Source: Buttiauxella noackiae ATCC 51607 (GTDB taxonomy: Bacteria > Pseudomonadota > Gammaproteobacteria > Enterobacterales > Enterobacteriaceae). Taken from it: DNA of 64,000 nt. Both the position numbers and the translations under genes were made by a program. Positions 61,452 through 64,000 of this stretch are shown here, piece after piece. The DNA lies in NCBI RefSeq assembly GCF_001654865.1, contig NZ_LXEO01000032.1, positions 1 to 64,000 on the forward strand. The letters are read 5' to 3'. The notes below the pieces were generated by a model that did not search any database, was not told the DNA's origin, and saw only the letters and a program-made list of their open reading frames with translations. Numbering within the stretch: the first letter of the stretch is position 1; every line of letters starts with the position of its first letter.

Positions 61452-63008
61452 TTGAAAAGATTTAAGATTAATTATCTGCTCATCGGTGCCGTAACCGTGT
61501 TGCTGGCAGTGGCGCTCTGGCCCTCCATACCCTGGTTCGGACAAACCGAAAACCGTATCGCCGCTATTCAATCGCGGGGGGTTTTACGCGTCAGTACGAT
61601 TCAGTCGCCTTTGACCTACACCCTATATCAGGGAAAGAAGATCGGCCTGGATTACGAACTGGCCCAGCAGTTTGCTGATTATCTTGGCGTAAAGCTGGAA
61701 GTGACCGTTCGCCCCAATATCCAGGAGCTGTTTGATGACATTGATAATGATAATGCCGATGTGATTGCAGCAGGCCTGGTTTACAACACGCAACGTAGCC
61801 AACGTTACCAGGCCGGACCGAGCTACTACTCCGTTTCCCAGCAGATGGTTTATCGCATCGGGAGTTTCCGTCCGCGCTCTTTGGCGGACGTTAAAGAAAA
61901 TCAGCTAGTTCTCTCACCCGGCGTTACGTCACTTAATGCGTTGAACAAGCTGAAAGCAGAAAAATTCCCGGATTTAAGCTGGCAAGTTGATGAGCAACAC
62001 AGCAGCACTGAACTGATGCAAAAAGTGGTTGATGGAGAGATTGCCTTTACTATTGCGGACTCTGTTGCCATCAGCACCTTCCAACGCGTTCATCCGCAGC
62101 TTGCTGTCGCTCTGGATGTGACCGACGAACAGCCTGTTACGTGGTTTAGCGCGTTGGATAACGATGATAGCCTTTCCGCGGCTCTTCTCGATTTCTATAA
62201 CCGCCTTAACAGCGATGGCACCTTTGCGCGTCTTGAAGAAAAATATCTCGGCCACGTTGGGGATTTTGACTACGTAGATACCCGTACCTTCCTGAAAGCG
62301 GTTGATACCGTGCTACCAACGCTTCAGCCGTTATTCGAAAAATATGCCACTGAAATAGACTGGCGTTTGCTGGCGGCGATTTCGTATCAGGAATCGCACT
62401 GGGATGATCAGGCCACTTCACCCACTGGCGTTCGCGGGCTCATGATGCTGACCAAAAATACCGCGCAAAGTCTCGGTGTTTCTGACCGGTTAGACCCAGA
62501 GCAAAGCATTGAAGGGGGGAGTCGTTATCTGAAAGATATGATGTCAAAAGTCCCTGAGAGCGTGCCAGAGGATGAGCGTATTTGGTTTGCTCTGACGGCC
62601 TATAACATGGGGTATGCCCATATGCTTGATGCCCGTCAGCTTACAGCGAAACAGAAAGGTAATCCGGACAGTTGGGCAGATGTAAAAACTCGGCTACCTT
62701 TGCTGAGTCAAAAACAGTATTACAGCAAAACCACTTATGGTTACGCCCGTGGCCATGAGGCTTATGCCTATGTAGAAAATATCCGTAAGTATCACATTAG
62801 CCTTGCGGGATATTTACTTGAAAAAGAGAAGCAGGCGGCGCAAGAAGAAAAATATGCCGAAGCTTACCCAGCTGTAGCTCCTGTAGAGCTTGCTACTCCA
62901 GGCTACGGGCCTTTTCCTTTAGGGCCTTTTTCTCAAGACGGCGGGCTCGAAAAAAATCACTTAACATTGCCGAGCACTCTTCTGCCAGTACGTCCTCAGT
63001 CACCGTAA
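61452..63008 (+). CDS. mltF: Membrane-bound lytic murein transglycosylase F
   Basis: Outer-membrane enzyme that cleaves the glycan strand with anhydro-muropeptide formation. 518 residues. N-terminal hydrophobic segment (8-27), a solute-binding-like module (about 40-265) and a lysozyme-like catalytic domain (about 290-460) with catalytic Glu in [20 protein letters not shown] and AYNMGYAHM. The start is TTG 61452 ([10 protein letters not shown]); no nearby ATG fits, and a TTG start is also annotated in E. coli. The C-terminus (last 60 residues) is Pro/Ala-rich and differs from E. coli. Its 3' end overlaps the tadA remnant on the other strand. Confidence 0.95.
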
Positions 63009-63060
63009 CCTTGTGACTCATCCCAGGATGGCCCGAAACATCCATTAGCGAAGCAATCAT
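62893..63060 (-). pseudogene. tadA: tadA 3' remnant (tRNA adenosine deaminase, truncated)
   Basis: The minus strand here encodes SLMDV, a HPGMSHKV block, [18 protein letters not shown] and a Lys-rich tail. This is the C-terminal third of TadA (in E. coli, about residues 122-167). The frame is undisturbed for about 52 codons and then loses all similarity near 63052; upstream in that frame is a TAG. The catalytic His-Ala-Glu and Cys-x-x-Cys zinc residues are missing, so the piece cannot work. An in-frame ATG at 63060 could give a 55-residue peptide but no ribosome site is seen. TadA is essential in E. coli, so an intact copy must lie elsewhere. The fragment overlaps mltF by 116 bp. Confidence 0.88.
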
Positions 63061-63100
63061 ATTCTACTGATGCAGTGCCCATCGAGGCACAAGTAAAGAA

Positions 63101-63134
63101 AAAATGGACAACCCTAAACGGAGTTGTCCATTTT
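63101..63134. terminator. Terminator in the mltF/tadA'-puuB junction region
   Basis: A perfect 12-bp stem (AAAATGGACAAC at 63101-63112, complement at 63123-63134) with a 10-nt loop and T-rich right flank. A second, weaker hairpin (CGATGCCT/AGGCATCG, 63197-63218) lies 18 bp after the puuB stop codon. Confidence 0.7.
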
Positions 63135-63235
63135 ATTTCTGATGAGAGCTTTCCATCATAAGTCATAGTAATACAAATGAAATATGCTCTCAGACACGAT
63201 GCCTTATATCAGGCATCGGTCGATTAGAGAGTTAA

Positions 63236-64000
63236 TCACACACCAAGACGATCGCGCAGTTTGTAGTAGGCCGCCCCCATCGCGGTGAACGGGATACGCA
63301 GGCTGCGACCACCAGGGAATGGGTAATGCGGCAGGTTGGCAAACGCATCGAAACGCTCAGCATCACCGCGCAGAAGTTCGGAGATCAAACGCCCCGCCAG
63401 ATGCGTACAGGTCACGCCGTGTCCGCTGTAGCCCTGCATATAATAGATGTTGTTATCCAGGCGGCCAAACTGTGGCATCCGTGAAAGAGTCAACAGGAAG
63501 TTGCCGGTCCAGCTGTAATCGATTTTCACGCCCTTTAGTTGCGGGAAAGTTTTCAGTAGGTTGGGCATTACCAGACGTTCAATATCCGCAGGGTCTCGAG
63601 CGCCGTATACCACCCCGCCGCCATAGAGCAGACGGTTATCGCCAGTCAGACGGTAGTAGTCCAGCAAGTAGTTACAGTCTTCCACACAGTAATTTTTCGG
63701 AATCAGTGAGCGGGCTACGTCTTCACCCAGTGGTTCGGTGGTCAGCACCTGGGTACCACACGGCATACTGCGTTTTGCCAGTTCCGGCTCGAGCTTATCG
63801 CCGAGATAAGCGTTACCCGCCACAATGACATAACGTGCCGTGACCTGGCCTTTTGCGGTGCTGACAACTGCCGGGCTGGTGTGCTGGATGTTAGTTACCG
63901 GTGACAGTTCATAGACGCGGCCGCCGTTAAGGCGAATGGCATTGGCTTCGCCGATAGCCAGATTCAGCGGGTGAATATGGCCGCCGCTATGGTCGAGCAA
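63236..64000 (-). CDS. puuB: Gamma-glutamylputrescine oxidase, C-terminal part (runs off the window)
   Basis: FAD-dependent amine oxidase of the Puu pathway that oxidises gamma-glutamylputrescine to the aldehyde, releasing ammonia and H2O2. The visible 254 residues correspond to the C-terminal 60 percent of the 426-residue E. coli protein, with near-identical blocks LLDHSGGHIHPLNLAIGEA, YVIVAGNAYLGDK, NYLLDYYRLT and MQGYSGHGVTCTHLAGRL, the last being the DAO-family FAD motif. The start and the rest of the puu cluster would lie beyond 64000. In E. coli puuE follows puuB; here no puuE is found downstream and the DNA goes to the tadA remnant. Confidence 0.9.
   Translation of the reverse strand: MLDHSGGHIHPLNLAIGEANAIRLNGGRVYELSPVTNIQHTSPAVVSTAKGQVTARYVIVAGNAYLGDKLEPELAKRSMPCGTQVLTTEPLGEDVARSLIPKNYCVEDCNYLLDYYRLTGDNRLLYGGGVVYGARDPADIERLVMPNLLKTFPQLKGVKIDYSWTGNFLLTLSRMPQFGRLDNNIYYMQGYSGHGVTCTHLAGRLISELLRGDAERFDAFANLPHYPFPGGRSLRIPFTAMGAAYYKLRDRLGV

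Follow-up and report, generated by a model that had tools for sequence, protein, structure and literature searches.

Prophage e14, at icd, and other elements integrate in the 3' ends of genes; at icd the gene end is duplicated and the host gene is kept open. Partial duplication of a host locus has also been described at lacZ of E. coli, where 56 of 60 analysed clones gave a PCR product diagnostic of such a duplication and 14 sequenced clones carried duplications of 109-950 bp, attributed to a single crossing-over of a circle with part of the homology lost (PMC3240628). The Buttiauxella locus described below resembles those Campbell-type integrants: a short locus duplication flanks the insert (109-950 bp there, 152 nt here), and one copy is complete and the other truncated at a non-homologous joint. 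The lacZ case involved a laboratory plasmid (PMC3240628), whereas here the insert is a natural puu cluster with a presumed circular donor. Tandem duplications of ~100 to ~900 kb (PMC3784515) were considered as a model and do not fit. No published account of the mltF/tadA/puu arrangement was found by title among the matches listed, and no paper was found that treats Buttiauxella, putrescine and horizontal gene transfer together.

The stretch of DNA analysed (the window) comprises bases 1-64000 of contig C32 (89,487 bp), which shares its numbering, in a 4.80-Mb draft assembly of 104 contigs. Near its end lies an intact open reading frame that, following the original prediction, we take to be mltF; it is 91.0-91.6% identical in DNA to its two nearest congeners. 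The original prediction held that only the C-terminal frame of TadA remains beside mltF and that puuB soon follows, and both statements agree with our searches: an open minus-strand frame at 62896-63063 holds the last ~56 codons of tadA, and puuB ends at 63236, after a junction zone of ~175 bp (Table 1). On the minus strand of 62902-63063, residues 112-165 of a TadA query matched at 78% identity with no stop, far beyond chance (E 1.3e-21), and a C-terminal TadA query matched 62896-63063, a 56-aa open frame, at 84% (E 1.4e-25). DNA homology of this tail to tadA stops at about 63057; the protein matches reach 63063.

Table 1. Features of the mltF-puu-tadA locus (window and C32 numbering coincide)
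Feature	Coordinates	Strand	Remarks
mltF	61452..63008	+	intact ORF, 518 aa; last ~110 nt overlap the tadA tail
tadA tail, part within mltF	62896..63008	-	TadA-like frame; looks like the recipient's own sequence
tadA tail, part beyond mltF	63009..63063	-	diverged; poor fit within this genome's clade; donor-derived or old
linker	63064..63235	.	172 bp between tail and puuB; strong hairpins
terminator-like hairpin	63101..63134	-	downstream of puuB
puuB	63236..64516	-	426 aa; runs past the window end (64000) on C32
puuC	C32 64519-66006	-	open frame
puuR	C32 66146-66703	-	open frame
puuD	C32 66729-67538	-	open frame
puuA	C32 67642-69117	+	open frame
puuP	C32 69486-70874	+	open frame
IS end	C32 70954-71012 (L004 10954-11012)		before tadA; ISKpn8 right end, IS3-family
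full tadA	C32:70982-71506		past puuP; 174 aa; 3' end reads into the IS end

tadA is essential in E. coli, and a whole copy had been expected elsewhere in the genome, possibly just beyond the puu genes. It is indeed there: the contig runs on to a full-length tadA 7.9 kb further along (C32:70982-71506). This full copy refutes a breakpoint within tadA that destroyed the gene, and the idea that the tail is the remnant of a destroyed tadA was discarded. The contig therefore carries two copies of the tadA 3' end, which form a direct repeat of 152 nt and lie 8110 bp apart. They are 84% alike and so not identical; the presence of an identical segment had been among the checks suggested. A direct repeat at both ends of the insert is what single-crossover integration of a circle requires. 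The tail is free of frameshifts, as the original prediction had noted in arguing for a recent event or selection; because it agrees with full tadA at only 84% over the 152 nt, the insertion does not look very recent. The differences are unevenly spread: the 93 nt that fall largely within mltF have 6, and the 51 nt that follow have 17. Within mltF the tail agrees with each of the nearest congeners, L012 and L014, at 91 of 95 columns (95.8%). Selection on mltF, which had been said to explain the overlap only, plausibly accounts for the conserved overlapping part; the remaining tail is strongly diverged. Full tadA is native over the stretch that matches this outer tail, at 88-90% identity.

Between mltF and tadA, flanked by the repeat, is an 8.1-kb block with puuB-C-R-D-A-P. 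Gene order and Pfam content are those of the enterobacterial puu cluster; the site between mltF and tadA distinguishes it, and puuE is missing, as at most loci examined. Pfam, run on the six puu proteins and TadA, returned the expected families for PuuA, B, C, D, R and P, all encoded by open frames, and the six genes align with other enterobacterial puu loci along all or nearly all of each gene or along the greater part of it. Annotated E. coli matches supplied the names puuA, B, C, D and R; the labels tadA and puuP, and pgpC, murP and murQ past tadA, are presumed or follow the original prediction. Loss of puuE was considered as a scar of the event and proved unremarkable, a puuE-like gene being in view at 15 of 64 puu loci examined; related aminotransferases occur elsewhere in this genome (best 70%).

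The closest DNA relative of the cluster is in Cedecea sulfonylureivorans (86.6%). Buttiauxella congeners reach 81.6-81.7%, level with several other genera (81-82.4%), and plasmid records about 78-80% at best. For puuP alone, the best match outside this genome (85%) is in G197, of genus g65, taken to be the same Cedecea assembly as the genome of L081 because tadA occupies the same contig position in both. Only 3 of 12 Buttiauxella genomes, ours included, have puuB, the other nine lacking it at E 1e-60; G008 and G009 carry it on the contig that also holds tadA, at a distance of some 700 kb. We infer that the cluster came from another genus. Against a foreign origin counts the G+C content of the insert, about 0.49-0.55 per kb without contrast to the flanks, and an anomalous G+C was accordingly dropped as a foreign mark. 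Among 80 puuB loci (displayed matches >45% identity, some with flanks <10 kb), none had puu next to tadA or mltF. In 19 puu-bearing genomes for which tadA was fetched, an mltF match lay within the same stretch (L136 was excluded, being equal to L009). One locus, L037 (CACSKA010000001.1), is named Chryseobacterium sp. and carries an enterobacterial puu cluster and a tadA 80% identical to ours; it is probably a mislabelled or mixed assembly.

Comparison of the junction in related genomes revealed an empty site in all 11 other Buttiauxella congeners examined. In these, tadA and mltF overlap tail to tail, and the tadA tail is found only in ours among the 12. In the two nearest, G007 and G004, the empty site aligns collinearly with both flanks (91.8-92.8% identity), with a single break at which the alignment stops at L004 3057/3058 and resumes at L004 11016. 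Among the 12 Buttiauxella genomes compared, the insertion is clean and confined to one lineage; it is real, lineage-specific and most likely horizontal, and ordinary in kind. We also searched 392 genomes of the family, drawn from a larger group, of which 301 had a TadA C-terminus match at E 1e-7, a threshold that shorter tails would escape. Two TadA C-termini were present in ours and in G081; the latter was rejected as a second case, its contig ends overlapping with 12.8 kb at 99.5% around tadA, and no further true tail duplication was found among the 301. The two ends of the single G081 contig (L176, L177, L178) share at least 20 kb, an overlap that mimics gene duplications. One segment within that overlap is inverted, beside an ORF that we take to be resolvase/invertase-like.

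On the right, the insert finishes with the terminal ~60 bp of an ISKpn8-like element, at about 82% identity, with matches in 418 plasmid records. ISKpn8 is annotated as IS3-like, and the element is presumably IS150-like. Shared with ISKpn8 are the last transposase codons (NRTLTYEPGV-stop) and the right inverted repeat; here only this remnant is present, and no left end was recognised at the other edge. IS3-family ends terminate in CA, and the remnant ends in CA exactly where tadA homology begins. TadA reads into the inverted repeat, so that its last ten residues are IS-coded: the protein ends KARSSE in L007, KARSAE in L013 and KVRNGNNPNKLDS in this genome. We infer that an insertion sequence landed in the final codons of a tadA and was afterwards lost for the most part. 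When the right junction was searched against plasmid records, only IS ends matched. Contig C70 of the same genome (L133:1-1135) carries an ISKpn8-like copy, cut at the contig start and 81% identical to the remnant.

At the left edge, the minus-strand RNA of 63058-63235 folds into several hairpins and far more stably than shuffles (z -6.69). One of these is terminator-like, although such sites are not rarer in shuffles (10 found in the region against a mean of 8.3). No relatives of the linker were found below E 0.001 in the 392 family genomes other than this genome (G000), none in E. coli records at E 1, and in plasmid records only matches at E 2-7 among the best 10 of 11 listed. The linker and junction matched no Rfam family, the left junction no plasmid or phage record, and the linker terminator, as a degenerate pattern, no viral contig. 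Against ISKpn8 ends, 158-358 of 500 shuffles scored as well as the left junction, and against the IS loci the left edge gave no match beyond one of 23 bp to L042. A composite transposon bounded by insertion sequences was set aside, an IS end being present at the right edge only and not at the left.

The outer tail was then placed relative to other tadA loci. Over 51 nt it shows 17 differences to the full copy, 13-14 to L012/L014 and 8-9 to L010/L013. On a fixed species tree, four placements within this genome's clade gave AU p values of 0.040-0.064, and KH (about 0.05) and SH (about 0.11), read by the program's usual column order, do not reject the same four; the clade stem had an AU value of 0.307, and all other placements are likewise allowed by AU. 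Because of this stem placement and the KH and SH results, the outer tail may be old recipient DNA. Among sites that differ between tail and full copy, several are private changes. Before offset 109 the clade base is in the tail alone at 7 sites, in the full copy alone at 3, in both at 1 and in neither at 2; at offsets 109-131 it is in the tail alone at 1 and in the full copy alone at 9, the cut at 109 having been picked after the sites were seen. Six more differing columns (offsets 136-141) were excluded, as DNA homology ends there. At offsets 118, 124, 127 and 130 the tail base is shared with 7, 9, 5 and 4 of 9 other loci and not with the clade; at offset 126 the tail carries its clade's base. 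The switch from 7:3 to 1:9 is the pattern expected from one crossover close to the stop codon of mltF. It is only suggestive, because selection on mltF protects only the tail's overlap and gives a similar trend, and it is confounded by the release of the full copy from the constraint of the mltF overlap. Outside this genome, the tail stretch has its match of lowest E value in G394, also of genus g65.

The architecture of the insertion is secure, and it is on balance probable that it arose by single-crossover integration of a non-replicating circle that carried the puu cluster and a 3' fragment of tadA. The strain's ancestor would have taken up, at the 3' end of tadA, a foreign cluster for putrescine catabolism (puu) from a donor in which the cluster adjoined an IS-marked tadA. 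In the known process of this kind, linear DNA that is homologous at one end is partly degraded, closes into a circle again and integrates by single crossing-over, so that part of the homologous locus is duplicated. Here the circle, unable to replicate, would have held puuB-C-R-D-A-P, the IS end and a tadA 3' fragment of about 150 bp. One homologous crossover within the short shared tadA stretch, presumably in or near the mltF/tadA overlap, would then have put the circle into the chromosome, leaving mltF uninterrupted and the cluster flanked by full tadA at one end and by the truncated tail at the other; the outer part of the tail would be donor DNA. Since the ends of mltF and tadA overlap, DNA inserted in the end of tadA would interrupt MltF as well unless the overlap were duplicated, and the need to spare MltF may be why an overlap-duplicating product survived. 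Counting against this model are the linker, for which no source was found, and the lack of a puu-tadA donor among the 80 puuB loci.

Other routes to the same arrangement have to be weighed against it. If linear DNA had entered, or an IS had acted, with the tadA side joined by homology or transposition and the opposite side by end-joining, the whole tail would be the recipient's own tadA end, duplicated on that occasion and since decayed outside mltF. The IS3-family end that abuts tadA where homology stops fits such an entry, as do the contrast between 17 of 51 differences outside mltF and 6 of 93 mostly inside it, which lost constraint would produce, and the stem placement that AU does not reject. 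The four outer-tail bases shared with other loci and not the clade speak against it, as do the low AU values of the inside-clade placements; moreover, recipient DNA is generally deleted in homology-facilitated illegitimate recombination (PMC3240628). We regard this route as somewhat unlikely. Homologous recombination on both sides, with a donor in which the order mltF, tadA tail, puu, tadA was already established, would give the same mosaic of native and foreign DNA, and genus g65 supplies both the best outside puuP match and the lowest-E-value outside tail match (G197 and G394). Such a donor order is, however, matched by none of the 80 puuB loci and by no second true tail in the 301 family genomes, and the tadA of the genome of L081 (L141; taken as G197) differs from the tail at 14 of 51 positions, which leaves this origin quite unlikely.

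The original prediction had also proposed a puu element inserted at the tadA 3' end, with a duplicated tail like an attachment site. Its first part describes the locus well; the attachment site is not supported. A site-specific element of this kind, e14-like, would have lost its integrase and restored the gene end, and the duplicated 3' end and open tadA frame are what it would leave. Yet every ORF of 110 aa or more from tail to tadA is either one of the six puu genes or nested antisense in one of them; none of these ORFs is integrase-like, and no tRNA was found at the junction. In addition, the replacement end is an IS end and not tadA-like, the copies are only 84% alike, the arrangement does not recur in the 301 family genomes with a match (392 sampled), and PuuB peptide patterns matched no viral contig. 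We consider such an element very unlikely. That the junction at 63050 is an assembly artefact, as a draft of 104 contigs might suggest, is improbable in the extreme: both junctions lie within one 89-kb contig, the order and orientation of both flanks are those of relatives, and an assembler should not confuse the repeat copies, because they differ by 16%.

Integration of a circle by one crossover stays our preferred reading of the locus, and an apparently broken essential gene is explained away by the full tadA past the puu genes. Nothing here points to a new family of mobile elements. One could speculate, as a decidedly long shot, that insertions at the 3' end of tadA survive only when they duplicate the mltF overlap, since neither gene can be given up, that the puu block is the first of these to be seen, and that the IS-coded ten-residue tail of TadA is tolerated or even useful. 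The locus shows, in a clean natural case, how a cluster of catabolic genes can come to lie between two genes that overlap, with neither broken: a short duplication keeps mltF whole, and tadA gains a new C-terminus from the end of an insertion sequence.
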